Below are positions 14,988 to 48,700 of a stretch of 64,000 bases of DNA, in pieces. Made by a program: the position numbers and the translations under genes. Position 1 is the first letter of the stretch, and each line of letters opens with the position of its first letter. The notes beneath the pieces were generated by a model. The model saw nothing but the letters and a program-made list of their open reading frames with translations. It searched no databases and was not told where the DNA came from. The stretch is from Mycteria americana (taxonomy: Eukaryota; Chordata; Aves; Ciconiiformes; Ciconiidae). Location of the stretch: positions 133,761,077-133,825,076 of the forward strand of contig NC_134365.1 in NCBI RefSeq assembly GCF_035582795.1, in the 5' to 3' direction.

Positions 14988-15699
14988 GTGATTCATGGCA
15001 GGGGACGTGGAAGGGTTTAGCTCCTCCATCCATGACACCAGTGTCTCTGCTGGATTCAGAGCACTGTATGAGGAGGGATTGCTTCTTGATGTCACACTTG
15101 TCATTGAAGACCACCAATTTCAGGCCCATAAAGCACTGCTTGCCACCCAGAGTGATTACTTCAGGATTATGTTCACAGCTGATATGCGAGAACGAGATCA
15201 GGACAAAATCCATTTGAAAGGTCTGACAGCTACAGGCTTCAGTCATGTCCTCCAATTCATGTACTATGGAACTATTGAACTGAGTATGAACACTGTTCAT
15301 GAAATCCTTCAGGCTGCCATGTATGTCCAGCTTATAGAGGTGGTAAAATTTTGCTGCTCTTTTCTCTTAGCTAAAATCTGCTTAGAAAACTGTGCAGAAA
15401 TTATGAGACTTCTGGATGATTTTGGTGTAAACATCGAAGGAGTCAGGGAAAAATTGGATTCCTTTCTGCTAGAGAATTTTGTGCCACTCATGTCCAGACC
15501 TGACTTCCTTTCGTATCTGAGCTTTGAGAAGCTCATGTCTTACTTGGATAATGATCATCTGAGCAGGTTTCCAGAGATAGAGCTGTATGAAGCTGTTCAG
15601 GCCTGGCTGCGCCATGATAGAAGACGCTGGAGGCATACGGACACCATCATTCAGAACATCAGGTTTTGTTTGATGACACCATCCAGTGTTTTTGAGAAG
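14988..15699 (+). CDS. KLHL15: KLHL15 first coding exon (BTB and BACK domains)
   Basis: The coding part begins at the ATG at 14995, seven bases after the acceptor, and gives residues 1-235 of Kelch-like protein 15. The sequence opens MAGDVEGFSSSIHDTSVSAG and carries a BTB fold from about residue 31 (LLLDVTLVIEDHQFQAHKAL) followed by a BACK domain (about 133-235). BTB-BACK binds CUL3 and dimerises; in mammals KLHL15 directs PP2A B56-beta, CtIP and doublecortin to ubiquitination. The exon ends FEK|, and the donor is AAG|GTTGGT, weak at positions +3 and +4. The frame stays open for seven codons into the intron before TAG (15721-15723). The -3 position at the start codon is T, a suboptimal context. 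Near-complete identity with the recalled human protein supports the assignment strongly. Confidence 0.96.
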
Positions 15700-18600
15700 G
15701 TTGGTGCATTTGAAAAGCAATAGACAGGATTCATCATTTAGCTAGGGCAGCATGCCATTAAATAGGTAAGATACCCAAACCTATTAGGAGGAACAAAAAG
15801 ATAGCATTTATTTTTCTAATAAACCCATAGAAGACAAACATCTAAAAGTATTGTCATCTGATTATTAGACAATAGTATGTACAGTGGCTGGAGAACAGGT
15901 AGGTTTACAATACATGTTTTTAAGTGACTTCATAAGGAAAGGACATTTTAAAATAAGGTCACTTGTATCAAGTTTTATTTCAGTCATTCTTACTGTTTTC
16001 CACAAGTTGCTTCTTGCTTTACAGAGATTTTAGAGCTGCATACAGTATGTAGGGTATATGTCATGATAATTGTTGTCAGTATAATCAAAACATAATGACT
16101 GTAGCGTTTACGTGGTTTAAGTACAGATTTTTTTATTTACAAATATTTTTCTATTTACTAGCATCTGCTGTTAAATCTGCAGGGTGTTTTTGTTGTTGTT
16201 GTATCTTCAGTGCTTGTGCTGTTACACAGCAGTTGGAAGTAAGCCCTGATCCTGCAAAGTTACACGTACATTTGGTTCTACACAAGGCACATAATACAAT
16301 TAGAAGTTATTGATGGTGTGAAATGTAATGATTTACTTAAAATATAAGAGGAATCTTTGTAACAGGTGATCTAAAATTCAACTGATCATTGTATGTATTA
16401 AGAGGTTAAAAGAGAACTTGCTTTTTCTGCTGTTCTGTTGAAGAATAGATGAAAAATGTTGTTTTCAGGTTCCTGAGAATCTCTGAATATTTGTCAACTA
16501 GAAAATTACAAAACTTTGTAAGCAGCTCTCTTGCAGGCTAGTAACAGTAAGGGTATTCAGGTTAGGAATTACTTAAACTGTGCTGTTTTGTTTTAACAAT
16601 GTTAATTTTGTGTGATAAGATACAACTTTAACTTGTGTATTGTTCACCTCTCAGTGACTTAATAGGATTTAAGACCCTGTGTTTCTGTTGAGCTTCTTAT
16701 AAATCAATTTCTATATATTTTTACTTTGGTATCTAGTGAATATACAGATAAGGTTGTATTGTTCTTGGTCATTTTAAGGGCTACTGGATCATTTAAGCAG
16801 TAATGCTTACACTTACTTGTATTTTAAATTATAAAAGCTATTAATTACTTCAGAGATGAGTGAGTTTTTATATTTTGGATTTTTTTGTGTGTGTGTGAAT
16901 TGAGTAGAGGAAGTAATACATAAAATACATTTATGATCCTATATTAGCCTATAGACATAAACAAAATAAATACCTAAACATATTTTAGAACAGTAATGTA
17001 ATGTTTATATTGGATTAAAATGTTTCCAACTAGTAAGAGCTGAACTCTGCAATATACTGTGTAGGGTCTTCTTTTAAATAATGCATTTACCTTATTATTA
17101 CATCATTTAAGCCCTTCAGTAGGAAAATTGGTAGGATTCACAGAGTGTTCTTAAGGTCAATCTAATAGGGTAAGGCTCATCTGAAAGAGTCTGCTTCAGC
17201 TCTTTGAATTTTTGGGATACAAGTTCAAGCATCCAGCTGTCTTCAGTTAAATTTCTGTATGCGCAAGTGAAAAGTATATGTTGGTCTTCAGCATTATATT
17301 CACGTATAACTTCTGGAGCTGGTTTTGGTATCAGTGGTATAAATCCTGCATACAGTGCTTCTCATTTTTATCTTGACAGCTACCAAATGGTGAGATAGGT
17401 ACAACTTAAGGAGATAAGTTTTTTTCAGTATCTCAGTTTATATACCCACATATAAAAGCTTTATCTGTGAATACCGTTTCCATTAATTGTATGTGGGAAC
17501 AGAGAGAAGCCAGTGCAGATTCTGAAGTGGGACAACTCAGCAGAGGGAAACACAGCTAAATAAGTATGTCATTTGTTGCTGCAGCTAGGAGTGTATTTGT
17601 GTTTTGCCCTGGCTAGAGAGCATTGAGTAATCCAGCATGAAAAGTGACAAAGGACAACCGCAGTTGGAGCTAGCATCAAGGTATAGACCACACCTTTTTT
17701 TTTTCCTTTTTTTTTTTTTTTTTTTTTAATAAAAGAATGTGTCTGTTAACTGTTCTGGAATTAACCTGAGGAGAACTCTCTTCTGTGTGTAGAAGGGGGA
17801 AAATATTGGTAAAACTGCTTTTTTGGAGATCCACAAACAGAATTCACCCCTTTCCTGAAGGCAGCACATAGTAAATGTCTGCGTCAATGTACCAAATACA
17901 ATCTGAGGCTGACTCTTACAGTTCAGCGAGCTCTGTATTCACTGTACAGTGGCTGGCTTGTCAGCTTGTCATATGTACTCTTACGTAATCTTTCTAATAC
18001 GCATTTCTAAGATGCCTGTCATTGTAGTATATAAATAACTTATATAACTCAACTTTGCAAGTCACAGTAAGGATACTTTTGGCCTCTTAAGCCATTCTGT
18101 TTCTTACATCATTTTTTGGAAGAGATTTACAATCTGAGTGGGATGGCTTGTCCTTTTAAAAAGGAATTGATGAGCGACTCTAGATTTATACCTTGAGGCT
18201 GATGTACATTTGAAGTGAAGGTGCAGCCTGTTTGCTTACTCTAAACTGTCCTGGAAGAACGGCTTCTGAAGTATGAAGAGATAATGCTTTTGTTCCTCAG
18301 CCCTTAAAATAGATGTAGATGTATGAGGGAAAATGGAAAGATAAATGAAGTAAGGATTTGGGGAATAGTTAGAAAATAAAGGCAAAAGTATATGGGGAGA
18401 AGCACAAGTTCCACTATCCATGTTACACTTTTCTTTATTTGAAATATATCCATGGCTCTGTAAGTCTTGAGGAAGGTTGTAGATAAAAATTAGAGGGCAT
18501 TTCTCCTAGATCACTGAGTTCATCTCTGTGTTACTGGAGGCAACCATGTCATGATTTCCCTTCATGTACTGTTTAAGCTCCATTTAGTTTCTGCGTACTA

Positions 18601-21600
18601 CTCAGATTGAAATGTTGTTTCAAAACCTCTGTCCTTAAAATTGAAAGTTGTTGGGTTTTTTTTATGTCCAGTCTATAGGGTTTGTTATGACTAGCCCATG
18701 CTGATTTATAAATTCCCAACTTAGTAATCACTAGGTACATCAGCTTCTGCTTTAGAGGTAGGATGGATAGCACATTATCTTTGAGTATGTGCTTTCCTGT
18801 GCCTAGAAAATAGTAACTTTTGAGAAGATGTCATTGTAATTTTATGTCATTGTGACTTGACCTTTGATAAATGTGTTGAATTTATCTTTTTTTTTCCTCA
18901 TTTACGTCCATGTCTAGTAATTCATATGTATCTACTTCTACAACTTCGTATGCTGAGGCTTAGAATAAGAAGTGTCTAGTGGATGAGGTTAGTGGGCCCC
19001 TCTTATCTTAAATAGGTGCTGCACTTGATATTTTTATGTCTAAAGGTTACTGCTGTCTTGGATAGATTTGCTAGAAGTATTTATTATGTGCTGAGCATCT
19101 CAATTCTGGCATATAGATTGTTGGCTCCACTCTCATTTGAGATATTAGATTTGAATTAGATTCCAGCTTGATTGTGATATAATTTCTCTTGCCAGTTTCT
19201 AAAAAGGAACAGCAAAATACTCAGTTTGAGGGCGTTGTCCTTGCTGCACAGAAGCTATGTCTTCTTGTCCTTCTGTGGTTAGGCTGAAAAACGCAAGTGA
19301 TTTGTAGCACTTGCAAAATAGCCCTTCAAAGCCCTGTAGTGGTACTGACCAGTTTTTGTACTGGCCATGGGATGTAACTAAGTAATGACCCATGCTAGAA
19401 AAAGGGAAAGTTAAGTACAGCAGCTTGTCCAGTGCTATGTATACTGATGTTTGGTTGCAAAGTAATTTTGGTTACTGCTGGTTTAGACACATACGTGTGA
19501 CTTTTTCTATTTGACTGAATTTTGTTCTGGAATAAGTGCGTTAACATTTTGATAATGTTTGTTGACAGGCTTATAATTGTGCTTAGAATATGGCCAGAGA
19601 TAAGTAGATGTGAAAATAATCAGGATCCTGGTTAGTAGGACTGATGGATCTTTAGTTTTGATTCAGCTTAATCTCTAGTAAAATACCAATTTTTTTGCAA
19701 GTAAAAGGAAGAATTTGCTCTCTAGAAGTCCGATACAGACGCCACCATTATTCATTGAAAAGGTGTAGCATAGCTTCTGTACTCCTAGTAGAGTTTGAGT
19801 TGCATCACTTACACATTCAGAATTGGCAGTTTTAGAAAACTTAAGTAAGCACAATTTTATAATCTTTGAAATAGTTCTCCACTTATGTGACTAGAGATGA
19901 TAGAGTCACATTATGAGCCATCCAGGTTTTTCTGTGGTTTTTTTACCAGTTCTACAGAAGGAACCAAGCTAATATCTACCCCATATAAAAACATGTTAAG
20001 ATTTAGTTACCAGGTGTACAAATAATAGATGTTTAATTTGGGCACTTCAAAAGTAGCCTTTCTCCATGGTTTTGAAAGCTTTTTCCTAAAAGCCCAAGTA
20101 ACAAAAATATAAATAGAGCAATAGCTGTAAATGGTGTGGGTGGGGAAGCTATACAGTGAAGTCAAACTTGTGTTGCAGAACATTTACCTTGCATTTCATT
20201 GCTCTTCCTGCAGCTTATTAATTTGCTTAATTGTTTGGGGGGGGGGGGGGAGATGATGAACATAACATGGGATACATCTGGTCTTTCATGGGGATCACTT
20301 TTCAAATTAGAAACTAATGGCTTACATTTTTGGCTTTACTTTTTCATAGACTATAGATGGAAAATTCTGAAACTTGCATAGCTGCTGCAACTAGAAAAGC
20401 ATGCATTGCAATACAGCAGAAAAATAGGCAATGATTAATAGCTGCATTAATTTGGAAAGCCAGCAGTTTTTACTGTTTCACTGATTCAAAATGAAGAAGA
20501 GAAAATGCATTCAAGCTCCAATTTACTATGGCTGGAGGGATGGTGGTGATTTTGGTGAAGTCTTGATGGTTTTGGTATTGACTACCCTAGGGGGTGAGTA
20601 TAGAGGTGAATGTTTTAAATTATTTTCCTCATCTTTCTTTTTGGAATGACACATTTGATTTTGTTTATGCTGTTCCCTGTCTGTGTAGCTAAAAGTCCAA
20701 CTGTGAACCACTATAACTGGTAGATGATGCAATGAGATAGTTCTCATTAGAGTTCTTGGGGAGCTCTTACATTAGCGCTGTGTCCCAGCAGAACCTCTGT
20801 AAAAAGGTTTTGTCCAGAAAACTGAAGAGAAAAAATTGGAAAGAATGTAAAAGTCACATGAGCAAAGCTTTAGCACTTGGATTAAATTCCTTTTTTACAA
20901 TAAGGCTGGGGTTGGTAAGGAAGTCCAACTTAAACTTTCTTTGAGACCCTTCAGCAACATAACAGAATAGTGTTTCTTTAAACTTTGAAAATGCTATGAA
21001 GCATTTATTTTTTTTTTATCAATTCAGAGTTGATGATGTACTCTTAAGAATGCACATTTGTTTTACTTCAAGGTTAGTGTACATTTCCATCTGTTTTGGA
21101 TGTTTTGCAGAAACTTGTGAGCATTCTCTAATTATTTGTTGGTAATTAGGGGCATGTTCCTTCTAGAGCTTCTCCATTTGAACTTAACAGGAAAATTGGT
21201 CTGTTGGTAAGCACTTGAGATATTTGTTGATCAACTACATGTTGCTACTTATGGGTAATGGCAGAAGGCTACTTTTGAAAGCTGAGGGATTTCCTTCAGC
21301 ATATTTTGGGTGTCAGCAATTCCCACAAAAGGCTTGCTGAAGGACATGTTCTTTAATCTACTAAAATTAAAACATATGCACAACTTAGAGTTGTGTTTTA
21401 ATACCTAAACACCTAGATTTTAATGCTTCTCTTTTTTGATTATACACACAAGTAATTAAAAGTATTGTAAAATTATTCAGAAGTGTAGGTGTTTGGAGGG
21501 TTTTCCTTACTATGGGCTGAATAGGACTTTCACATAATTCTGGAAGATTTCACACAGACAGTGTGTGAATGTGAAAGTGGGCAAACTGACCTACATTTGC

Positions 21601-24600
21601 GTTGTCTTCATTTGTATCAAGCAAGTGTGAGCAGTCTGTACTTTCATATAGGCATATCCTAACATTCATCTTGGACCATCATTTGAGCCTCAGGAGAGGT
21701 ACCACGCTCCTGTATGGCAGAGGTTGTGCTGGTGAAAGGTGGAAGGCTAGAAACACTGATATTTTTCTTCAACGTCAAATTCTAGGAAGCCTCCAACTAC
21801 CTTTTCTTACCAGAATTTAGACAGTCTATCGCTCTGGTTTGTTTTGGGGTTTGTGGGTTTTTGTGTTTTTTTTTTTTTGGGGGGGGGGGGGTGGTGGTGT
21901 GTGTGTGGTGTCTGCATATTGTAAGAATTGCTAGTGCTTATATATCTTAATGTTCATCTGTTCAAGATTGTGCTTGTAGATAGCTTCCCCGTGAACTTCA
22001 GTCTGAAAGAGTTGTTTATAACTGGTAGCTGCATTTGCTTCTTGATGTCTTTCTGGTTTAAGGTAAGAGATTGAGGCTTTGCTTTGATGTTAGTGCCTTT
22101 GTCAAGATAAGTAATAGTAAACTACTAAGAGAGTGATTCCCTGGTCTTGAGATTCTGTCTCTGGAATTAGAGATATTCCTTGTTTCCTTTTGCATGCTGT
22201 CATGCGATGAGATTTAGGTTATGTGAAGGAGTAGAGTGATGAGGATATAGGAGGCTTATTTTATTTCCAGTTTCTGGCTGGCATTTCAGTTTCTAGATCT
22301 AAAGACAGAGTTGTAAATGTTGAGGGGGAAAGAAAAAACAATTTTCCATCTCTGCCAGGCTTTGCTGGCATGCTTCACGTTGTAAGCATGTTGATCCTGT
22401 TGTCTTCCATAATCATCCAAGAAAACTTGAAATGCATATAGGTGGAACAAAAATAGTTTATCTTTTTGTTTAATTCAAAAAATGATAGCTCTGGTTTGGA
22501 AATGCATGAAATAGTTGTGCTGTTTTAGAATTTGAAAGTTACTTTTAAGGATAAAGTAACCCACCCGTGATTCTTTGTCATTTTAACTTCCTGATTCATT
22601 TTTTTGTACCCTTTAAGGCTTTCTATATTTTACCATTTTTCTGTGCTGTGGTTCTCTCCGCCACCCTCCCCCAGCATATTTTCTGGAATTTATGTTCAAT
22701 CTTTTCAGTCAGGCAAGTTATGTGGTTTATTCTAACAAATGCCATATGAGCAGATCTCCTGTGTTTGTATGATGGATTCTTTATTTGCAATAAGAAAATA
22801 GATCTGTTATTCCCCAGAAGAGTTGGGCTTACTGTGGGTGTTTTATAAGCACTATACCTAAGTAAACCTTTTCTCTCCATAATCACCCCCGATAAAAATG
22901 GTGGAAAGCAGCTGGATATTGCCCCGAGAATAATATATGCAATCTGCATGTGACCATCCTCTTTTTCCAAGCAAAGATAAGTTGAAGTTGTCAAAATAAA
23001 GTGGGGAAAAGAAAAAGTGTAAATAAAAACATCAAATCACTGTAATTCTTGAGCTGTATAGTGCTTTACAATGGTAGGTTAGTATTTGTGGTTTTTTGAA
23101 AATCTGGTGTGTAAACGAATCTCAAAATCTGTGCAAAACATGTCCAATAATAACAGTTCAAAAGATTTTTTAAAAAAATCTTTATCTGACATCAGAATGT
23201 CTTAATTACTATACAAGGATGAGAAATTATTAACAGAAAGCTAACAAAATTTGAATAGCACATGTTTATGGAAGAAGCAACTACTTTATTCACAAGGTAT
23301 AAAGAACATTCATTTCCAAATTGCTTTTCATGTACATGAAAACTCACACCACGACCCCTTAGGTAAGTGGTGGTACAGGCTTTTGTCCCCTGGGGCAGGG
23401 AATAGGAGGAGGTGGGGGAACAGATATTGAAAAATAGTAGCTTCTGACGTTATCTTGTGGTCACTTTGAAATTGCAGAGTGGCCTGACATTTTTTCAGAG
23501 CATCACTTCTCTTTTTTGGAGCTGGTGGGAACTAAAGGCATTCAGAGTGTTTGAAAGCAGTCCAGCTTTATGTGAAAGAAACTAGGACTTAGGATCAAAT
23601 CTGATAGAGGATTTGTGGATTTGGCAATATCTAGCAGGCTTTTATTTGTTTTTGAAGTGTAATTCAGGATGCTGTGTTACACCGGACTGTACAGGAAGAG
23701 CGAAACCTCTTTGAAGAGAATCACGTGGTGACCGAAGGTCTGCCTGGAGCTAGATTTATTAAAATGTTCAAGAGAGGGATGTGTTTTGGAGTTGTTTCAG
23801 GAACTTAAATTGGTTTTAGTAGGAAGGGTCCTGGAAAGGTAAATTCTTGCAGTCTTCCCCCCAACTCCAATAAAACTGAGCAGGGATAGCTCTTTTCAAA
23901 TTGACATGGCACCAAGAAGGAGCACTTCACTACTATGTGGTCATTCAAAGGTGGTAACTCTCACCTGGGAAGTGGAATTTTAAACCTACCTCTGCAATTT
24001 ACCAAATAAATGTGCAACCAAAGGATTATAGGTTGAGATGTCTTCCTTTTGTGTTAAATGCGTGTGTTAAAGTGTGGAGACTCACAGGAGGGAAACTGTA
24101 AGGTAACCATCATGACGAATGGTTAGTGCGATCACATGTTCTGAAGAAAGGGGTTTGGGTACTTTCCCTTCCCACCCTGCCCCAATTAAATAGCCCTGTG
24201 AGCAGAGCCTAGCATTTGGGAATACCTGATTGGGCTTGATTGTGAGAATTCAGCAGAAATTAGACTAGGGTAGACCTTGGTAAACACAGAATGGGTGTGT
24301 AGAATGTTTTTCAAAATCAGGAAGGTAGTGCGTTTTTAATTTAGGTGCTTCATGGATTAAGCAGAAGATGAACAGAGGCTTTTTTGGGGAGAAGGAATAA
24401 TGATTTTTAGACATGGGGATTTCAGTTGTGCAGAATTCCGGCTTAAATTCTGCATGTGAGTATTCTGCTGAAAATGTTGGTCACTGCTGTTAATTACTGA
24501 ATTGCCTTCTGGATTTTGGATAACAGTACATTAGCTTAACCCTCCATGCACAAATGCAATTGCTCTCAAGATTACCTGAATGAAACGAAGTAAAATAATC

Positions 24601-25791
24601 TTCTAATGACACATAGTCATTTAGGTTTTCTGGATTGTTTCTCGTGGTTGGAATTTTAATATCTTTTAAATGTATTCATAGGTAAAAACATCAGAGTTTT
24701 ATCGATACTCCCGGCAGCTGCGACATGAGGTTGACCAAGCCATGAATTACTTTCATAGCGTTCACCAACAGCCTTTGATGGAAATGAAATCGAACAAAAT
24801 TCGTTCTGCCAAACCCCAGACTGCAGTATTTAGAGGAATGATAGGACACAGTATGGTAAACAGTAAAATTCTTCTCTTGCACAAACCAAGGGTCTGGTGG
24901 GAACTAGAGGGCCCTCAAGTACCTTTACGACCAGACTGCCTTGCCATTGTAAATAACTTTGTGTTCCTATTAGGTGGGGAAGAACTGGGGCCAGATGGTG
25001 AGTTTCATGCTTCATCCAAAGTGTTTAGATATGACCCAAGACAGAACACTTGGTTACGAATGGCAGACATGTCTGTTCCACGTTCTGAGTTTGCTGTTGG
25101 AGTTATTGGGAGGTATGTTTATGCAGTGGCTGGGAGAACCAGGGATGAAACGTTTTACTCAACTGAACGGTATGATATTACTGAAGATAAATGGGAATTT
25201 GTGGACCCCTATCCAGTCAATAAATACGGACATGAAGGGACTGTGCTTGGTAACAAATTGTATATCACTGGTGGAATTACATCATCTTCAACTTCTAAGC
25301 AAGTGTGTGTGTTTGATCCCAGTAAAGAAGGGACAGTAGAGCAGCGAACAAGGAGAACTCAAGTGGTCACTAACTGTTGGGAGAACAAATGCAAAATGAA
25401 TTATGCAAGATGCTTTCACAAGATGATTTCTTATAATGGTAAGCTTTATGTCTTTGGTGGTGTCTGTGTGATCCTGAGGGCCTCCTTTGAATCTCAAGGA
25501 TGTCCTTCTACAGAGGTTTATGACCCAGATACTGATCAATGGACTATATTGGCCTCTATGCCAATTGGTAGGAGTGGTCATGGTGTAGCTGTTCTGGACA
25601 AACAGATAATGGTTCTTGGAGGCCTTTGTTACAATGGGCATTACAGTGATTCGATTCTCACCTTTGATCCAGAGGAAAACAAATGGAAAGAAGATGAATA
25701 TCCGAGGATGCCGTGCAAGCTGGATGGCTTACAAGTCTGCAGCTTGCACTTTCCTGAATATGTTTTGGAGCATGTTAGACGTTGCAGCTAA
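14995..25791 (+). CDS. KLHL15: KLHL15, Kelch-like protein 15 (complete, two coding exons)
   Basis: Joining 14995-15699 to 24682-25791 gives 604 residues, the length of human KLHL15 as recalled. The junction is in phase 0 (FEK|VKTSEFYRYSRQLR). Order of domains: BTB (about 31-98), BACK (about 133-237), then a six-blade Kelch propeller (about 320-590) that recruits substrate. The product is a CUL3-RING ubiquitin ligase adaptor in cytosol and nucleus. It is transcribed on the plus strand, divergently from EIF2S3, from a CpG-island promoter near 5850. The same neighbours (EIF2S3 upstream, APOO downstream) are found in human. No disruption is seen; substitutions relative to human are few and conservative. 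Confidence 0.95.
15700..24681 (+). other. KLHL15: KLHL15 intron between coding exons
   Basis: An intron of about 9 kb, T/G-rich on the plus strand, with donor GTTGGT and acceptor TATTCATAG. It contains long T runs (17694-17728), a 14-G run (20237-20250) and a T-run/13-G-run/GTGGT block (21861-21912). No transposon or RNA gene was recognised, and the short open frames have no familiar products. Confidence 0.7.
21840..21912 (+). repeat. T-run/G-run low-complexity block
   Basis: GGGGTTTGTGGGTTTTTGTG is followed by a T run, 13 G (21879-21891) and GTGGTGGTGTGTGTG. It could form a G-quadruplex on the plus strand and is a place where assemblies often err. Confidence 0.7.
24682..25791 (+). CDS. KLHL15: KLHL15 second coding exon (Kelch propeller)
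   Basis: This exon encodes residues 236-604. It starts directly after the acceptor CATAG with GTA AAA ACA TCA GAG (V K T S E) and ends at TAA (25789-25791) after the C-terminal residues VRRCS. Kelch repeats are marked by double-glycine or similar turns: LLGGEE at about 333, AVAGRT at about 385, ITGGIT at about 432, VFGGVC at about 494 and VLGGLC at about 548. Each is followed by downstream Y and W residues (YDPDTDQW, FDPEENKW). The large uninterrupted exon holding the whole propeller fits the family. Reading shows no stop or frameshift. Confidence 0.96.
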   Translation, partial: VKTSEFYRYSRQLRHEVDQAMNYFHSVHQQPLMEMKSNKIRSAKPQTAVFRGMIGHSMVNSKILLLHKPRVWWELEGPQVPLRPDCLAIVNNFVFLLGGEELGPDGEFHASSKVFRYDPRQNTWLRMADMSVPRSEFAVGVIGRYVYAVAGRTRDETFYSTERYDITEDKWEFVDPYPVNKYGHEGTVLGNKLYITGGITSSSTSKQVCVFDPSKEGTVEQRTRRTQVVTNCWENKCKMNYARCFHKMISYNGKLYVFGGVCVILRASFESQGCPSTEVYDPDTDQWTILASMPIGRSGHGVAVLDKQIMVLGGLCYNGHYSDSILTFDPEENKWKEDEYPRMPCKLDGLQVCSLHFPEYVLEHVRRCS

Positions 25792-35493: not shown

Positions 35494-38400
35494 CTGTATA
35501 ATACCAAGCATTCTTACACACGTACAGGAGTAAGAAGCTATTCCATAGCACTTGAGAAATGTGACATTTTTCTCATCTATAAAATTGCCAAAGCAAGCTA
35601 AAGCATTGTTTTTTACCTGTGCCAGCCCCATTTTATACTAATTTATGAGACTGAAGAGGTAGTTTCAAATGCTGTGCTAGAGAGAAATGGTTAGAACTAA
35701 AGACAATGTTAGTCTGTGCACCACTACCCTGTGTCCCTTCAGTTCCTACACCATGAGCTGCAACTATGCCAGCCATAGCCCTCCTCCATAGGCTGTGGGG
35801 GCAAAAACATAAATGACTTCACATTATGAGAGTAGTAGGTGATAACACACATTAAATATACATGGGATCACTGGGGGAAACTATCTAAATGACAGTTTCC
35901 ATTAGTGATTGTGAAAGACCCCTGAAACATGTCCTAGAGTTTCCTAAACGCACTGCAGGATTAAGCATGTGTAAGGTTGGCTGTTACTCCTTTGTGGAAA
36001 ATGCTCCCAGAATGGAAGCAGCAGTTGAAAGTACCAGACATGATGGTTTTTGATGAATGTGAGGCAAAGGAATGGAAAGGTGCAAAACCAGCCTGTACAA
36101 GTGACGTGGTATCAAAGAGCAAGGAACTGTAGTAGGACTTCTAGGTAATGAGTACTTCTCCCCAGAAACACAGGCTTATGTCCTGAAAAGGGCATTGTGC
36201 TTCCAGTTTTGCTGCATACCTCATTCTCTCTCAATCAAATATGCCCTCTTCATTTTTACTGGCTTCTGTTGAGCTTGAGAAGAGCAACATGTTGGCTGCA
36301 TGGACACTGTAGTAGGCCAGTAAGAGTAAAATGAAGAGGTGACTGATGAATTGTATGGAAATGAAGATCTAGAAAAGAAAAATCTTTAAAAGCCAAATAC
36401 AGGCTTTTCTTCTCAAAAAGGGTGTTGCTCTAGACTGAACAAATAAAGCCATGGAACCAACTTCTGCCTTCTAGAAATAGAGAATAAAGTTTTTTCCCTT
36501 ACACTCTTCTATTACATCAAATTATGGTGGCAGCATCAGTGAAGAAGAAATCCGGATGATTCTTCATGTGGTGCTCAGCTCTGTCTCCCTTCTTGTTCAA
36601 GCTGCAGAACAAACCCCTGCAGAACAGTCTGCTGCTCTTCTGGTCCCTAGGATCCTGTAAGGCTTCAAGCCCCAGCCTAGGGGCTTAATGGGGAAGCAAG
36701 TCAGAGCTTAAGCCAAGAGTTAACAAACAACGTAAGTATAGGCTTCACTACTCAAATATGCAAATCTTTGCCTATTTCTGACTAACTTGTATCATGCAAG
36801 ATGTCGGACAGCAGGTAGTGGTACACGCTGCGTTCTCCAGTTGGTCTGTGTGTGTGTGAGTGGTAAGTCCCATGGACCTCGCTGTAACTCCTCTCACTCT
36901 TACAAGTGTGTGTAGATACTGTTAGAAAGATTAAAATGCAATTTCGTAACAGCAAAAATGAAGACACTAGAACACTTTCAGTAATAGACTGTAATAATCA
37001 TGTGATGGTACAGGTATACATAGTAAGCATATAATACGTTCTACTTCTCATTCATGGGGGAGCTACATCATGTGCCCTGGTAGAAAGTAAAATAGAAATT
37101 AAAACCCTTCAAAAATGATCATTCTAAAAGTCAGTTATAAGTAACAAAGTAAGCTCAGCATGTCACTGTTAATTATTAAAGAGGCAGCACAGTACAAGAA
37201 GGAATGTGTGCCTTCAATTGGAAATTATTTGGTAGACCTAGAAACTTAGTCATTCAGGTAAATAAGGTACTACATTTAATATCTATATTTATGAAGATAC
37301 TGATGTCAATACATTTACAGGCAAATGAGGTAAAGATACTCACATTATCTTGCTAAGAAATTAAGAATTACTGTGAAAATAATTTTTAAGGTAAAAAGAT
37401 TAGATGCGCTAAATACCTGAAGAGACTGGCAACAGATGCAAGAGCTTTCACCTTTTAGCCTCAGTTAATTTCCAAAATGTATCCGGCTTGACTGAAAACC
37501 AAGATGCATTTGAATTTTGAAAGGAGTTGGACTTTGTTGTGATGGGTGCTTAAGAGCATCAGAAAGGTGTTTGTGTTCTCACTGTACCATATATCTGTGC
37601 TTTAGAAGACGATTGCTACACCAGACATTAGCCGACATCTCTATCGGTAGTATGAACGTCTTTGTTAACAGAAGAATTATTCATCGGTGCTGGAAGGGAG
37701 TAATTGAAAAATGTGGAACTAGAGCTACTGATGGCTGCAGTGAGAAGTCAAGGATTTGAATTAGGGAAGGAACATTTGGGTGTTTAACCATGGTGATACC
37801 AAAAGTGAAACTATACACAGTTGGATTACACTGGGTTTTTTTGCATGATATGTTTCTCTTTTTTTACCTGTCCCCTGTCTTAGAATATAGGTTCTTTATT
37901 TGGAAAGCACTGAGTATATTTTGGATGCTGTCAGAATGTGACAAAGCTGATGAGACAGCACATGCTGAAATTCAAAGTACTGGTTTACCCCAGATGTGAA
38001 TACAGTAACGTCTTTGCTGCAATTAAAGGTAGGTCAGTGGGAAAGCACAAAGAGCTTTGCAATAGCATCTGTCCTTAACATTTAATTTACTTTTTGAATG
38101 TATGACTTCAGACCTCATAGCTGCCAAAATAGCACCTCTGACAAACGTTGAAAACCGACCTACCTTAAGTATGAAAAGCAAAAGCACAAGGTAAGGTTCA
38201 CTCCAAATAAAACAGTATCGTTAAATACAAAAATCCGTTGAACACCCCCCCCCCCTTTTTTTTTTCAAGTTAGGAAGTGAATAAAGTAGAAAGAATGAAA
38301 GAGTATTCTTATGAATATACAAACTACACTCCCTTCATAAAGACACTGGGAAAGATCCATCATCACACACCCCTATAAAAGCTACTTCAATTAGCTGTTT

Positions 38401-39134: not shown

Positions 39135-39260
39135 CGTAATGGCTAAGGCAAAGGATTAGCAATCAAGTTCCATAAATTGTATTTCTGCCTGGGCTGGCAT
39201 AGTTTATGAACTGTGGCAGCGTTTTCAAGCCTCTCTGAGCTGCAGCTTTCTAAAGAAAAT
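39135..39260 (+). mobile_element. probable ancient MIR-type SINE
   Basis: The order of motifs matches a MIR: a tRNA-like part (GGCTAAGGCAAAGGATTAGCA), then TCTGCCTGGGCTGGCA, then TTCAAGCCTCTCTGAGCTGC and AGCTTTC. The MIR core consensus has CCTCTCTGAGCCTCAGTTT at this place. The copy is strongly diverged. The call rests on recalled consensus only. Confidence 0.45.
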
Positions 39261-39340
39261 ATTTCTTTCACAAGTATTTAGAAAAGCCAATTACCGAGGA
39301 AAGGGAAAAATACTGGCATGCAAAATAAAACTGAAACTTG

Positions 39341-39580
39341 GTATAGGTTCTTATATTAGAAACAACCAGGAGTTGATCATGCCAAAGCTCTTTATTCTGT
39401 GGCCTCAGCAGCAGAAACTTCAGCTCCTTTTTAAGCCTGCCTGACAATGTTTTGGACTGTGCATAATCTATTATGGCACATATTATCACTGTCCCAGGGA
39501 AATTTTGCAGAGGACAACCTTCTCCAGCAGTTATTCCTGCCACCAAAGTAGGCAGGGCTTTCATCCAGATTACTGGTAGA
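39341..39580 (-). pseudogene. CXorf58: CXorf58-like exon C with frameshift
   Basis: The acceptor TTGTTCTCCTACAG leads into STSNLDESPAYFGGRNNCWR and RL in one frame. From about 39514 the homology continues in the next frame (PLQNFPGT, then RLKKELKFLLLRP and QLLVVSNIR). One extra base, the A at 39514 or a neighbour, explains the shift. Similarity fades after SNIRTY. No clear donor is seen at the 3' side, and a stop follows at 39268-39270. Confidence 0.6.
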
Positions 39581-40396
39581 CTGTAGGAGAACAATACACC
39601 GACATGAAAGCTAATGTATTTATATTGCTATTCTCTATAAAGGTTTTCCCACTCTTTTTAATCAGTCATATCAATCACTGTAAAGATTAACTTCCAGATT
39701 AAAGAAAAAAATGCAGTGAAGATGCTGGAGCTGATAAAATTGTTTAGTTTAAAAATTTTTATAAAACAACTATCTGTTCTTCAGATATTTATATCTGTGT
39801 TACATAATTGTATCAATAATTGCTGCGTAGTCACTGAATATAAATTGATCACAAAAACATGTATTTGTAACATATACACCATTGTATGTCCAGGAACAAT
39901 TGGAATTTTCTTTACTGTTCACATACCAAACTTAAAAAGAGAATGCACTTGAAATATTCTTGTCTGTCCTCTGTAAAATTGGTCCCACCCACAGCCTGGG
40001 ACTTGGCTTTGGTTGAGAACTAACCAGAGCAGGCCACTAACCATGACTCACCTCAATGCCATCACTCCTTGTGGGCTCGCCTGTCATTTTGAGCTTGGAA
40101 AATTTTCTTTCTCTAACGCCTTGAGGATGAATAAAATGCATCAAGAAACACGACTGCTTTGCAAACTACCCAGTCAGTCTCCAGGCTCTCACAAAGCTGC
40201 CGTAAAATACTGCAAAATTGGGTTTTCCACAAATATTTGCTGTACCCTGGCTGCTTATTTTCCACAGATAAAACTGACTGTGCAAAGCATAATGCAATGG
40301 AGAAAGAGGCCCATTAGTGTTCTTCACCCATCAGTCACTTACGTACATTTTAGATACAACTCTTCCTTGCTAAAGAGGGAATCTTCATAACCAAAT

Positions 40397-40513
40397 CTGT
40401 AATAAAATATCGTTATCATCTGTTATGCTGTGGTTTGGGTACTGAAGCTCATCTTGTGCCACTTGTTCATGGTATTTCTGATATCCCATTAACTTGCAAG
40501 CGTCAGCTGCTGC
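40397..40513 (-). pseudogene. CXorf58: CXorf58-like exon B
   Basis: After the acceptor CTGTATTTCACAG come 39 codons in phase 0: AAADACKLMGYQKYHEQVAQ and then DELQYPNH...DILLQ. The human counterpart has AVDDACKLMG and ends near VVTMQ. The expected donor after LLQ reads CAG|ATTTGG, not GT, and reading on hits TGA four codons later. A strong GTAAGT donor exists further on, at about 40343, but the frame is closed before it. Confidence 0.6.
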
Positions 40514-41619
40514 CTGTGAAATACAGCAGAAAAATACAATAAGGCTTTAAAAAGAAAAGGCACAAACCTGAAGTCTTCCGATTTCACTTCAGATTGCTCC
40601 CAACAATAATCCATGTGCCAACAAACAAGAAGGACTGTCTGCTGATTTTACAAACAGCTCGTTGAGAAGCATCGCCCAATTTTGCAATGCAATGGTTAAA
40701 CATGCCCATTAGTCTGGAAAATACTTGTTCCTGCTATAGCTGGTTGTATCAGGTCTATAAAGAGACTGCAATAAAGAAACGTAGGCATTTTCTTTAAGAG
40801 GGAACAACAAAAATCATCATCAACAAAGAAAATTCGAGATTATAAGAGGGTGCATACCTCGTCTGTCTTTCCACAATACCCTTCCTGATGGACTATTTGC
40901 TACTGTGTTCTTCAGGTACTTTACCTCTTATGTAAAAATTATTTTTTATAACATTTTCCAGGACTAATAGGGTGCTATTCTTCATATTCTAAAATCAATA
41001 TTAAATCTTTTAAATTACTATAGTATTTTTGGGGACCTGAGAAAACTCATTAAGAGAGGATCCACGTTATTTTCTTGGTGTTCTTATGTGTCTAAACTAG
41101 GAGCGTAGGCTTCTCTCCCAGTGCCAGGGAAAAGGAGGAGGTGATGGGGTACACTTCCAAGCAGAATTCAGGTGCTGTGAACCCTCTGGTGAAGTCTACG
41201 TCCAGTCCATACCAAGGCAGCAGAGGCTCCTGTGAGGTTTCAAAAGTCAGGCAGCCTGAATCATCACCCTTTCACCCCAAGTCCTGACGGAGCGGCCTCC
41301 CAGCAGAACTGTGATGGCAACTGTATGGCACAGCCTATGGAACCTGCATTTTCCATATGTAACAGTTAAGCTGAACAAAGAATACAGACAAATGCTTTCA
41401 AGTATCTTTGCATCTTAAGCTTCAAGGTAATTTTTCACTGCTACGTAAAAATTAACAGTATTCGGTAAAAGCAAGGCACTTTTTTGCATTTGAAATCTGT
41501 CGTTATGTGACCAAGGTTAAGTACGAGGATAAATATCTTACACAATGTTAAAAATAACAAGCACCAAGATCCTAGTAACTGATCAGAAAATTATGACACG
41601 TGAACATGAAGTAAGTCAC

Positions 41620-41728
41620 CTCATTTGATGGGCTTGTTCTTTTTCCGCTAATGTATTTGCTGCCTTGGCCTTGAGTGCTGCGAAAGATCTTTAACACAAT
41701 GAAAGGTGGAGACTCCTGACCAGCAAAT
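41620..41728 (-). pseudogene. CXorf58: CXorf58-like exon A
   Basis: On the minus strand the acceptor TTTGTTTCTTCAG precedes a 109-nt exon (one base plus 36 codons: FAGQESPPFIVLKIF...SPSNE) ending GAG|GTGACT. The length is one codon shorter than the human segment as recalled. Splicing in phase 0 to exon B is consistent. This exon itself is intact. Confidence 0.6.
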
Positions 41729-42018
41729 CTGAAGAAACAAAGCAGCAGTTTATTAGCTGAGAATATGAGAACAGATTTCCCATGATTTCAATGGGAATGG
41801 AATATTGCCTTGGTTTATCTTATCTGACGCGAATTTAGTACTCGTTATTTCTGATAGTCTTCTACCACAGGGTCGGACAGCATAGGGTGTATACCCTCCC
41901 TCGCAGCAGATGCGAGCGGAAAAAACTTGCTCCTGTCCAACTCGCTCAGGTGAGCTGGGGATGCCCCATCCTGGGCTGCAGAAACCAGGAGTGTTAAGAT
42001 ACGGAGAAGGGCGTAGTT

Positions 42019-42303
42019 TTATTGGTTTAAATTTAATATTTTGAGATTAGAAAGGTACAGAACCCTATCTTGATCTCCGTACTCTAGCCCCATCCGAGTT
42101 CTAATGGCATTGAGATGTCTCTGAACATCCTCTACAAAGGCCACAAGGTAATGCACTGAACCATGCTTGCAGGTGGTAAAGAATAGCGAGTACACACATA
42201 CAGCACTCTGGCACTTTTTTTTTTTATAAATTGAGTTCTAAAGAGATGTTCCTGCCTTATAGCTACCGAAATTTCGAGTATTTTCTATTACCAGCCTTCT
42301 TCC
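42019..42303 (-). other. unassigned open segment ending in stop plus AATAAA
   Basis: About 95 sense codons run without a stop on the minus strand and end in CAATAAAAC, where the stop TAA lies inside an AATAAA signal (42018-42023). The product (including HYLVAFVEDVQRHLNAIRTR) is not recognised. It does not match the N-terminus of CXorf58 as recalled. A short terminal exon, an LTR fragment or chance are all possible. Confidence 0.25.
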
Positions 42304-42633
42304 AGCACACAGTAAGCGCTAATTCAAACCCAGATCCGAGTCCGAAGTAAGTCCAAATTTAAAAAAGAATTCAAAACGTGCCTGATGTATCCCCCTTACG
42401 CATACAGGGGCTTGGATGGCTCTTAATATTGCAACCTATAGAAACCACGTCCTCGCCTCGGGTCTAAACAAGCCGTTGTGCCTCCTTTCCCCGAATCTGA
42501 CCAGATTGCCCCTTCTGCTTTTATCTCCTCCTTTTTCTCCCCTCTTCGAGCCCCTCATCCCCGCCCGCCGCCGGCGGCAGCAGGAGCGTGACGGCCAGGA
42601 CCACGTGGGGCGGAAAAGCCCCGCCCCCTCGGC

Positions 42634-42646
42634 GTTGCCAGGTTAC
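42634..42646 (-). promoter_or_regulatory. RFX X-box motif
   Basis: The minus strand reads GTAACC-T-GGCAAC, an exact match to the X-box consensus GTNRCC(0-3N)RGYAAC bound by RFX factors that control ciliary genes. It lies in the shared promoter and is oriented with the CXorf58 homologue. Confidence 0.55.
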
Positions 42647-42695
42647 CGCGGGGGCTGATGCAAACGGCGCCAGCTCCCCGGCGGGCGGGTTTTTT

Positions 42696-42703
42696 TGACG
42701 TCA
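42696..42703 (+). promoter_or_regulatory. APOO: CRE (TGACGTCA)
   Basis: A full palindromic CREB/ATF site 46 nt before the APOO start codon, close to where a TSS is expected. Confidence 0.65.
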
Positions 42704-42748
42704 CAGCGCAGCGACGCGGCCGGTGCTCACCGCCCGCTCGGCACCGCC

Positions 42749-42757
42749 ATGTTGAAG
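42749..42757 (+). CDS. APOO: APOO coding exon 1 (MLK)
   Basis: Nine coding bases, ATG TTG AAG, followed by the donor GTGAGG. The ATG context is GCCGCCATGT. Human starts MFK and continues V in the next exon as here. The 5' UTR probably begins around the CRE at 42700. Confidence 0.85.
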
Positions 42758-45700
42758 GTGAGGAAAGCGTCGCTGCCGCCCGCGGCCGTTGCTGTTCTCC
42801 GCCCGCTCTTCCGCTAACTCCGCTGCGTTGACAGGGCTCCCCGCCGCTCGTCCCCGCCCCGGGGGAGCGGGCGGAGGCAGGCGGCGGCCCCTCCCTTCAG
42901 GCCTTACCACCGCCCCGGCCCCGGGGCCTTGCAGCGGGATGCGCCGGTTCCCGCGGAGGCGGCAGGGTGGCCCCGGTGCTGCCGGGCCGTCGCTCTGGGG
43001 GCGTCCGTGTCCGGCGGGGCGAGGCCGGCAGGGGGCGGCCGGGGAGCGCGGCCGGAGCGGCCCCGCTCTGAGGCGCCCCGCAGGCGGGTGCGCTGGCCCG
43101 GGAGGGGCCCCGCTTCTCCCGCCTGCCGTTTTAACGCAGGTTCTAGTTACTTGGTTGACGAGAGTAGTCAAGTAGCGCAGACCCTGGCGTTGTTACCAGC
43201 GACCGATTTTTTCACGTTCGAGCTAAAGCTGTTCTAAAATCTGTACTGTCCGGTGGCAGCTGTACCCAGGGTATTTGCCTGTAACTCTCGCAAGCTGTTA
43301 GTTTTACTCTTGTGGCAGCTGCGTAATCTCTCTTTTTAATATTTCAAAATTGCGTGCCCTATCCGTGTTGCCCAAAAAGAAACACGTGAACACCACGTTC
43401 GTTACTTAAAATGACTTCCTGACCACAGCAGCGTGGAGCTGGGAGCCTTAACAACGTTTGGCTTTGTAAAGTCCTCGTCTTGAAAGTCTCCCTTTACTGC
43501 ATGTAGGTTGTCAGTGAAATCTGTGAAAAGGAGTGAACGTGCATGGCCTGGGCTTAAATCAGATAATTGCCTGAAAGGTCTTTGCCTCTGATAAGAAGAG
43601 CCCCAGATCCCCTCAGGCCAGAAGCAGGTTGTATGTTGCAAATGGCTACTCGAGAAGCAGGGGTTTTTTTTAAAACTGGTGACACTTGATTCTTGAAATT
43701 CGTTCTCTTTTGTACTTTTTGAGTTTGTCAAATGTTGATAATATATTGATAAGCTGAGCAGCCTATGCTTGCTTTACTCTTGTCGCAACTTCATTTTTTT
43801 GATACTTTAATGTTGGGGCACTTGCTGGAATTCTTACGGATTTTATCTCAGAATTGTTGAGAATTCCATAAGTGATACTGAATTGTCATTAAAGGGGTTA
43901 TATGTGAACCTGTGGGTTGAGGTACTATGCATAATATTACTACTTTTATACAACCATTGAGGTTAGGCAGATTCCAGTGTTTCAGGCCAAGCTAATTTTT
44001 TGCCTGTAAGAGCAAAAGGGGGAGGTGGCTTCTTGTCCTTGATATCTGTGCTTCAGGGAACAGGAGTGCTCAAGAGTTTGGTATTTTGGGGTTGAGAGAT
44101 AGGGGGAAGAATGGAAAAAAAAAGAGAAAAATGAAGCAGCTTCATACATTAGTGCAAATATCAGCCTTCACAAAAGTATGATTAAGGATCTTTTTCCTTT
44201 TCTTCTTCCTTTCCCTAGTTTTGACAGGCTGACAATAACAGTAACAAGTGAACTGAGAAACCACAGACAAGAGGAGAAAAAAGACAAAAGTTCTAGTTAA
44301 TCTTTAGCTCCCCCCCCCCCCCCCCGTTTGTATTGAGAACTAATAGGGGATTTATTCTTCCCAGAGGCATTTTTTAGTTAAGAATTAAGAACTTTGAGAA
44401 AGAAAGTAAAGCAAGGCAATGAAAGATGAAATCTGGTAGTCTTTTTCCCCTCCAACTTTGAGATTGAATTTGCTTATGAGTGATGTGGTACCTACAGATA
44501 AAATTGAGTTCTTCAGCTAGAGAAAGGAATAAATTTAATATCTATCTTTTTTTTTTTTACTTTAAATGCCTAGAGAGAAGAATGTCAGCTCTACTTTTCT
44601 GGTATCAACTGAATAGCTGGAAGACAGGCAGACTAAAGGCACAGCTCAATTAAAATGTTTTACTAAACCAATTTGTTTAGTAAAACGTGGTTAATATGAA
44701 ATTCAGGAATGAGATTCTAAAGTGAATTTTGGAAACAGAAAGCAGAACGGTTAATCTTTCATACTACCGAATAAACCTTTTAGTGTGTGCGTATATACGG
44801 TACTTTAGTACTGGTTGTATCTGTCCCATAAACTTAGCTGATGTAGAAGACCATTGCAGTATAGCTTGAACAGTGCATTTAAGGAGAGATTCCTCTTGCA
44901 CTTTTAGTGGTTAATTTTGTTTTGGTTAAAATGTAAATGTGAAACATTCAGAAAATGTCTGCACTTCAGTATTTTGATAATACGGTGTTTTCAGTATGAG
45001 TAGTTCTGTCATCACTGATGTTTGTGAAACCAAAGTGGTTCCATTCTTATGCTCCGCTGTTTACCTGCGTGTCTATATAGAAATCTCAAATATTTAAAGC
45101 ATTTGGATTTACTGTTTCTGCTGGTGACATTTAGATCATTTTCAAACAATATAAATGGTGTTGAATAGCAGCAAAACCACACCTGTTGTTTGACATAGCA
45201 GACTGGATTTATTTTTCCTAAACAGAGGTTATCAATAATGAATTATTCTTTAATTAAAGTAGTATTTTTTTCTGTTGCTGTTGGGTTTTTTCTTTTCCTT
45301 TTCTTTCTTTTTTTGTTTTTGTTTTACTGCAAGGGACACTTGTAGAAAAGTTAAATAGAAGATGTAAAAACTCTGCATGTTTATTCATGTAACAAACTTT
45401 TGCCATATTCAGGAATTAAGTTTTAGACACTTGTCTCTGAGTGGCTCTCTCTGAAGTTGTGTTTTTCAAGTTGCGTTATTTCAAAAGTCTCCTCTGGTGC
45501 TAACTTCTTTTGAGTATAGTATGTGCCATTGATTTAGTAGTTGCTCTACTAAAGCTATCTGTAGTTTTAGGCTTGTTTGAAATTTAGGCTCACATGAAAT
45601 ATTTGCACTGAATATGGCTGTTCAGGTAACTGGTAGCTGTAGTTTAAATAAATTTGAAACTGCTTTGAGGAAAGTGAGTGGAGTCGTGAATATCTTGATG

Positions 45701-48700
45701 TCTTTTCTAGCTGTATGTTTCATTTTTAAAGGTTCCAAAAGTCACAGGAAGTAATATTTTACTGAAAGCTTATTTTTCAGAATGAAAGTGCATTTCAGAT
45801 TTTTGCCTTTTCAGTGACAGAACAGTTTTGCAGTGAAAAAAGGGAAGAATGAGGAAGTATATTCTACAGTTATTAATGGTTAGTGGCGTTCATGTTTTTA
45901 TCATGGCTAATGAAAATATGTGAAGAGTCTTTGTTTAAGCAAACAGTATTAAAGATTGTTCATGTCTTTTCTTGGCTGTGAAACAGCTGATCCGGTCATT
46001 GTGGTGTTTCATTATAGTGCTGTAATAATGAGTCCATAAATACAAATAAGGAAAAACTTCCATTTTAAGCAAGTTTTTCCATACCTTTTGATCCATCAGA
46101 TCCCTTATGTCTTTCTGAAAAGAAATCCTATGACCTAGTTCTTGTGTGCTGTTTCTCTCCACATAAATGAACATTTTCAGGAAGTTTGACAACTATATAG
46201 TCTAGTTCTGAGTTTGAGGAGTCTCTTGGTTACATTTAATAAATATTCCATCTGCAAAGCAGTGGAAGAAACTTAAGCTGCAAATACTGATCTGTATGCA
46301 ATAAGCGTGTAGTCTGGATAATTTTAAAGCTATTTTCTAACAGCTCTGCAATGGGCAGAAACAAAGTTTCAGAGTAATTGTCTTGATGCTAGGTCAGTTA
46401 TCATCATAACAGCATGAAGGATGTATTGGTTTGACCAAGGCTTCAGTTTCACGAGCAGCTAGGTCAGTGTAATGTACCCTTACTATTTCTGAAAAGGAGG
46501 AGGGCTTGCTGCCTTCTCCTTTTTCATCCCCTCTTCCCTGGCCACACAGTTCCTCTGGTGCTTGTCAGGCTGTTTCATGGACGGGTTCAACTTACTAACC
46601 CCGCACAAAGCTCTCCGCTTCTTTTTCAGGATTGATCTTTTGCCAAATTGGCGAGGTGAATTGCCTCATGGTGGAAGCGTCCGGCCACCAAAGCTAGGGC
46701 AAGGTGAGCAGCAGGACTTCTGGGAACGGATGCCTCAAGCAGAGCCAGACCTCTCCAGTTTGGTGGCCGCAGGCTGTTAGATTCGCTCACGCTGTAACTT
46801 ACTACAACAAACCGCAGGCTGTTGTAACTCTGCACGTGTTTATCTGAGCAGTAACATGAATATGAGACATTGAAATGTTTCCCATTGGAACTGCTGTTTC
46901 TGGAGTAAAACGTTGCTGTTAATAAAGATGTGTATTTGTTGGAAAATGCTTTTGGTGCATTCTTGATTCGCTACACAGCTAAGATTTTTATCTTCTGTTT
47001 TTTAAGTTAAAGCAGTCTCTCCTGTTAAGAAACACAATTTAGTGTAGGTCCAGAATATAGGAAGAATTATATTCACCTTACTCATAGTGGTTGTGTTGTG
47101 TGACTGGATTGAATCTGTAGTATTCAGAAACAGTGAAGTATCTGTCACAATGCGCTGTAATTCATGTTTCTCACAGAAAAGTAGGAGACATTCCTAAAAT
47201 TCTTAGAAAGCAATGATTATGTTGTGATACTTTCAACTGTAGGTCTCATTTTTTTCCTAAATCTAGATGCAGACGATAACTAGAAATTAAACATTGAACT
47301 TCTTGGTACTAACTCACTATGGAAAAATGGAGGTGTTACAGACATTCACAAAGTTGTTTAAAATAGTATAGATATTAACAACATTATAGTCATAAGAAAG
47401 TTGACAAAAATAATGTTTCAAGTGAGAGAAAACAGAAGATCTTTTTGTGAGATGAAAACTGATGAGATTAGCATTTATATCTACTGTTTCCTTTAGCCTT
47501 AGGCTTTTCTAAATACCATCTGAATAACTTAGGTGTTACCATTTGAGTGCCTGAGAGCATTAGATTGTGTACCACTGACTCCCCTTTCTTCTACCTTCTA
47601 AACATCTTAATATATCATTTATATGTGGGGACACAAACATTGTCTACGTGGATGTGTTCAAACATGTTGCCATTTTGTTTGAACTCTAATGATTTACACC
47701 TTTTCCTATAATGTTTCTAGGTAATTCGGCTGGGGGCCACCCCTGTTAGCCTGAGCTTGCTCTCTATCCAGGTTTATGCTTCATCTTCAGAGAAGGAGAC
47801 TTCCAAAAAGGAGTTGCTGAAAATTGAGGAGGTAAATATGGTTAGAGCCCTAGTGCTCTTCTATCTATACGGAAATATCTAAGGAATTCTGAAAGACATT
47901 ATATTTTGATGTGTGAAAGTATTTAGGTACATCTCTTCGCCCTTTGTATTCTTGCCTTTAAACTTGCTTCTCTATTTTCAGTAATAGAGGTGTCGATACA
48001 GTTTTGCTTCTTACACCTGAGGGTTGGATTTGATGCCCTCTGCTTGATAGTGTCAGGCTTGCTTGTGTAGAAAATCTTTTTCCTACATTAAAGCCTTCTG
48101 TTCTTCATTCAGAAATTACCTTTTCATGTTTGTAGCTTTACTTGTGGTCGTTTCACATCCCCAGGAATATTTTCTTTGCTTTTTATCCAGGTAACACCAT
48201 GTATGTTGTTGTTTTTTTTTTATTTATTACAAGTACTGTTGGAAAATTCCAATAAAATTTCATTTACCTTCTCCAGTAAAACAGCAAATCAAAAGCTGCT
48301 ACTTCTAAAAAGATTGTCTTTTTTACAGGCAAAATTCTTGTCTGGCAATGCTTTGAATCCGATATAGTAGCCTACAGAATTTTATCAGTTTTCCTTTCTT
48401 TACGACACTCAGACCTAAGCAACAACAAATAAAATAAATAGTGATAATAAAAACCTGTTATTTTATTGTTTCTCTAAGATGCTACAAATGGCTTGGTTAT
48501 ATCACAAGTAGAGCTTTAAAACACCCTGTCAAACTGTAGACTCACCAGCATTGTGGCACAGGCTTTTAAGTCTCCAACATTAAAAAAAAAAAAACCAAAC
48601 CAAAATTGTAGTTCATAACTAAATACAGCTGTGTATCCATAGAAGTTTGTAGATGTTTAAAAATTTTAAGTACTTCAACCCCAGCTAAAGTGTTGTTATA

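Follow-up and report, generated by a model that had tools for sequence, protein, structure and literature searches.

A probable unitary pseudogene of CXorf58 between KLHL15 and APOO in Mycteria americana, and a possible erosion of its paralogue MFI

To our knowledge, no function has been established for CXorf58. A role in motile cilia and spermatogenesis has been predicted by data mining, in a study that also names MFI as the paralogue of CXorf58 and points out that MFI redundancy may hinder the analysis of CXorf58 phenotypes (PMC8317215). We consider MFI and C11orf65 to be the same gene, in line with a table printing C11orf65/MF1 in a second paper. There, C11orf65 is related to FAP423/MOT12 of Chlamydomonas, an IQ-motif protein that is a minor component of the axoneme (PMC11151096). 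In birds, the ciliary genes WDR93 and CFAP46 were lost concurrently (PMC10445033), and CatSper, sNHE and sAC are likewise reported as lost or pseudogenized (PMC6660944). The locus described here resembles the first case as an axoneme-linked loss in birds that would affect two functionally linked genes together, and resembles WDR93 in particular in that remnants remain in place with lesions of the frame and of splice sites. It differs in that WDR93 and CFAP46 are central-apparatus C1d genes studied in about 500 vertebrate genomes and by RNA-seq (PMC10445033), whereas we analysed one genome and a different family. With CatSper, sNHE and sAC it would share the loss or pseudogenization of avian sperm motility genes; those, however, are an ion channel and regulators, not members of the CXorf58/MFI family of IQ proteins (PMC6660944). 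In the available text of the literature on CXorf58 and C11orf65 with chicken or birds, we found no report of an avian loss of either gene.

The window, i.e., the whole stretch of DNA analysed, comprises 64,000 nucleotides of the 223 Mb contig C1 (133761077-133825076) in an assembly of 1.35 Gb and 279 contigs. It contains 0 N bases and no Rfam family was detected in it. Positions below are those of the window unless preceded by a contig name. The gene order is KLHL15 (plus strand), a CXorf58 homologue (minus strand) and APOO (plus strand). We take the human order to be KLHL15 - CXorf58 - APOO, and the bird homologue has the corresponding flanked position, on the strand opposite to both neighbours. 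The sequence suggests that the CXorf58 orthologue still occupies its ancestral place and has probably been inactivated, making it a unitary pseudogene.

KLHL15 (14995..25791, plus strand) is the tail-to-tail neighbour, with open coding from 14995 and at 24682-25791. Its two long open frames of 243 and 369 codons matched BTB, BACK and Kelch in Pfam, an arrangement that we presume to be KLHL15. APOO is the head-to-head neighbour. Its first coding exon (42749..42757, plus strand) reads ATG TTG AAG and is followed by GTGAGG, and further plus-strand exons follow in order at 47721, 50326, about 53161 (weak), 54265, 57239 and from 62871 onward. Pfam ApoO matched two of the APOO exons, both under the curated cut-off. 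APOO residues 80-96 gave a weak match to the human query, showing that exons can be nearly invisible under a query of this kind: the CXorf58, APOO and MFI queries were all working versions of the human proteins rather than database copies. All exons found in the two neighbours are open and without a frame break, and the local quality of the assembly therefore looks good.

When the working human CXorf58 query was compared with the window by tblastn, four collinear matches were found on the minus strand, covering residues 103-262. Residues 103-133 matched 41733-41641 (65% over 31 aa, E 4.2e-7, 43.1 bits), residues 140-178 matched 40519-40403 (44% over 39 aa, E 2.8e-7, 43.5 bits), residues 184-213 matched 39586-39497 (50%, 36.6 bits) and residues 209-262 matched 39510-39349 (44%, 38.5 bits). 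The last two fall in a single exon and have a joint E of 1.2e-10. The preliminary description had proposed three minus-strand exons following CXorf58 in order and position, and had called for a tblastn check; the four matches bear out the arrangement, and tblastn with the working human query was significant at this locus (E 4.2e-7 to 1.2e-10). A likeness arising by chance in conserved non-coding or unrelated DNA is extremely improbable: the matches are collinear, with E down to 1e-10, and lie in the syntenic interval, the joint between the first two exons is compatible in phase, and all four matches (36.6-43.5 bits) exceed the best of 200 shuffled queries (31.6 bits). Nothing was found in favour of a chance resemblance, which the shuffles and tblastn reject. 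At the level of the sequence, homology to CXorf58 is beyond chance.

The homologue also appears to be the only one in this genome. A query made of the first two exons (A and B), run against the 1.35 Gb assembly, was significant only here (E 3e-19 and 2e-17) among the best three candidates scored. The third of these (contig C20, E 0.12) contained three stops and was set aside as noise. The 308-residue working human query listed four matches, and each of them fell here (E 1e-5 to 0.92). With these queries, which cover exons A to C, no second copy was detected among the best three and four candidates scored, respectively, and the locus is the sole significant copy among them. Exons A and B had no relatives in prokaryote genomes and viral contigs by tblastn, and no match in the PDB up to E 1. 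In Pfam, one of the three CXorf58 pieces gave two families at chance level (E ~0.1) and the others gave none.

Exon A (41620..41728, minus strand) encodes (R)FAGQESPPFIVLKIFRSTQGQGSKYISGKRTSPSNE between a good acceptor, ttcttcag, and a donor, GAG/GTGACT, that is fair (score 3.4) by an approximate donor matrix. Exon B (40397..40513, minus strand) encodes AAADACKLMGYQKYHEQVAQDELQYPNHSITDDNDILLQ after the acceptor tttcacag. The two exons join in phase 0, with the same spacing as in the working human sequence. Exon B is open through DILLQ and then meets an in-frame TGA (40387-40385); at the end of its homology (40385..40396, minus strand) there is no normal donor. The sole GT before the TGA is complete belongs to the weak sequence TTG/GTTATG (40392, score -4.3). 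A donor-like sequence, TACGTAAGT (TAC/GTAAGT at 40343, score 2.7), is located at 40337-40345 on the minus strand, about 50 bases past the homology of exon B and beyond the TGA.

Exon C (39350..39580, minus strand) gives STSNLDESPAYFGGRNNCWRRLSSAKFP and FPGTVIICAIIDYAQSKTLSGRLKKELKFLLLRPQNKELWHDQLLVVSNI, which lie in different frames. The homology follows one frame to about 39500 and the next frame thereafter, switching from -1 to -2, which places a one-base change within 39490..39505 on the minus strand. The homology ends at 39340..39350 (minus strand) with AATATAAG followed by AACC, where a GT donor is missing. In the interval 39240-39380, which was scanned for donors, the highest-scoring GT is TCG/GTAATT at 39295 (0.7), 55 bases past this end. 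The sequence agrees with the exon limits given previously (41728-41620, 40513-40397 and a start at 39580), and the broken reading frame that had been reported is seen directly in the two exon C matches, in frame -1 and then -2. The damage extends beyond the frame break, in that exons B and C both lack a normal donor at the ends of their homology.

We considered the possibility that the gene is intact and that an error in sequencing or in the consensus produced the one-base change in exon C. The change is a single base beside short runs (TTTCCCTGGG), as would be expected of such an error. However, an error at this point would leave the missing donors of exons B and C and the undetected 5′ exons unexplained, and KLHL15, with its 243 and 369 codons, and the nearby APOO exons are free of any such break. 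We regard this explanation as quite improbable.

The chief rival to the pseudogene reading is a gene that still codes after being re-framed. The weak donor TTG/GTTATG would end exon B in phase 2, exon C would start in a new frame and, past the one-base change, be read in the ancestral one again, and the product would either end at 39268 or splice on. With a splice at 40392, 180 codons can indeed be read without interruption between exon A and the stop at 39268, and the fair donor TCG/GTAATT (0.7) at 39295 lies inside it. However, the exon B donor scores only -4.3 compared to 3.4 for that of exon A, both by the approximate matrix, the conserved DESPAYFGGRNNCWRR stretch at the start of exon C would be replaced, and a 5′ coding exon is still undetected. 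In addition, a random 27-codon stretch on the minus strand of the window stays open in about 24% of cases. On balance, a re-framed coding gene is unlikely. An open stretch of 119 codons at 39268-39627 (minus strand) shares the frame of the 3′ part of exon C, covers this exon and carries on beyond its homology as far as the stop at 39268; automatic annotation may report it as a gene.

According to the preliminary description, the terminal exons were not visible. This holds for the 5′ end, where none could be detected; at the 3′ end there is a candidate, exon D (36221..36368, minus strand), which reads (R)SSFPYNSSVTSSFYSYWPTTVSMQPTCCSSQAQQKPVKMKRAYLIERE before a stop. It has the acceptor ttcttttctag and the phase that exon C requires, and it resembles human residues 288-307. 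It ends in SSQAQQKPVKMKRAYLIERE and a stop, where the human counterpart presumably reads SKQAQMKVEKMRKVYLAKEK. The similarity of exon D by itself is weak, with shuffles reaching its score in 6/200 and 3/100 cases. It ranks first among 451 open acceptors in the required phase, narrowly, at 23 compared to 20 for the next; these two tests rest on one similarity and cannot be counted as independent of each other. No exon for human residues 1-102 could be detected in the interval from exon A to the APOO start (41735..42745, minus strand), where the best local score was 25 compared to a shuffle mean of 30, and 197/200 shuffles scored as high. The best of 28 donors scored in this interval reaches 7. 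Failure to detect an exon with a working query of this kind is weak evidence of absence, above all for N-terminal parts.

A CpG-rich stretch at about 42400-43400 holds the APOO start codon at 42749. It is probably a bidirectional promoter that would formerly have served CXorf58 as well. The head-to-head arrangement with APOO in this CpG-rich stretch could also be taken to mean that the core has been kept for a role other than protein coding, e.g., serving the shared APOO promoter as a transcribed spacer. However, the similarity tracks codons and exon limits, as expected of a former coding gene, and specific evidence for a new role is absent; such a role is very unlikely.

The bird copy retains residues 103-262, the core of human CXorf58 (NX_Q96LI9), in an unchanged order, and presumably the same neighbours, KLHL15 and APOO. 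This core is spread over three exons whose order, phase and strand are preserved. In contrast to the human gene, the bird copy is frame-broken, a normal donor is missing after exon B and also after exon C, 5′ exons were not detected, and the stop in the candidate last exon comes early. A frame-breaking change thus lies in a conserved coding exon (exon C, 39490-39505), and splice sites and exons appear to be lost (the B and C donors and the undetected 5′ exons). We infer a loss of coding function because of the frame change, the two missing donors, the undetected 5′ exons, the open neighbours and the eroded-looking paralogue (see below). A unitary pseudogene is the simplest reading of the sequence, and it does not appear to be anciently dead.

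There were no stops in the 151 homologous codons (0/151), an observation that counts against a pseudogene, as a constrained gene would show the same; the 151 codons come from pieces picked for their homology, and the TGA after exon B falls outside the count. At the 5% level and under neutrality, 0/151 stops limits the divergence since the loss to less than about 0.16 substitutions per site. The one indel yields an estimate of 0.015 to 0.044, with wide intervals, assuming indel to substitution ratios of 0.05 to 0.15. The avian neutral rate is near 2e-9 per site per year. At this rate, the CXorf58 loss would have occurred less than roughly 80 million years ago, a loose bound that makes a loss within the bird radiation plausible. 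The proposal of a recent loss therefore stands in part: the lesions support a loss of coding function and there are 0/151 stops, but recency is only loosely bounded, at less than about 80 million years. While intact, the gene would have encoded a small protein of the IQ type, belonging to motile cilia and to the flagella of sperm. Selection on CXorf58 may then have been relaxed in this bird lineage, with small lesions and the loss of the 5′ part following.

MFI has a core similar to that of CXorf58 (VRFRLGGVKFPPDIYYKIF and IRFRFRGETFPPFIVFKIF, respectively, in the working human sequences), in which FPPDIYYKIF recalls FPPFIVFKIF of CXorf58. It occupies another locus, which we take to be next to ATM in human. 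A minus-strand reading at C1:204346023-204346112 is presumably the C-terminus of ATM. Beside it, on the opposite strand, are two MFI exons that are collinear with the working human MFI sequence and matched in phase. The first (C1:204334596-204334685, plus strand) encodes DVHIFQYNKELTSFRGTDPPLLVKSIYPQE and ends in GAG followed by ATAAGG, with AT where the donor GT belongs; by itself it is weak, as 2/50 shuffles scored as high. The second (C1:204335367-204335420, plus strand) encodes AELLGVAAGAFIKFRLDA, has a normal acceptor and donor, and is stronger (0/50 shuffles). The remnants thus lie beside ATM, on the strand opposite to it and in the expected order.

The MFI exon with the FPPDIYYKIF core was not found with the working query in the 80.7 kb extending up to ATM and 70 kb beyond. 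The search returned eight rows at chance level (score 40-49), on both strands and over the whole MFI length, none of which has FPP. Neither the row at 204361118 (LYYKTFQH, score 40), the nearest in letters but not preceded by FPP, nor that at 204350520, antisense to an apparent ATM exon, was accepted. The top acceptor among 378 open acceptors before ATM (204341477, score 19, next 13) was unconvincing. Genome-wide, the missing exon gave no significant match to the working query (best E 3.4), and the whole-protein MFI query gave nothing up to E 10. The N-terminal IQ exon of MFI was not seen beside ATM with the working query. The remnants were themselves found only via the ATM neighbourhood, and silence under such working queries is therefore weak evidence.

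With one donor reading AT and the exon after the core start not found, MFI looks eroded too, less certainly than CXorf58. If so, the potential compensator for CXorf58 would be eroded as well, and this bird's axoneme would seem not to require the pair. The possible joint loss of both paralogues is the most interesting side of these observations. We suggest, tentatively, that CXorf58 and MFI, members of the FAP423-related axonemal family, may both have been lost in this bird lineage and perhaps in much of Neognathae. If this is true, such birds amount to natural double knockouts for a motile-cilium family that is conserved and uncharacterised, and that would join WDR93/CFAP46 and CatSper among the avian losses. 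A double erosion would put to the test whether an axoneme can work without the family, and would point to avian lineages for comparison.

The assembly is recognisably that of a bird by its beta-keratin genes. This family (PF02422) had 391 candidate places, and all of those scored (150/150) pass the family cut-off. One of these genes was read out as MSCYDQC...CNEPCVRQC, presumably a keratin of the feather type. On contigs C248, C25 and C2, the beta-keratin genes stand in long, regular arrays in which the scores are equal and the spacing hardly varies (for example, about 4.3 kb on C2 and 5.6 and 6.5 kb on C248).
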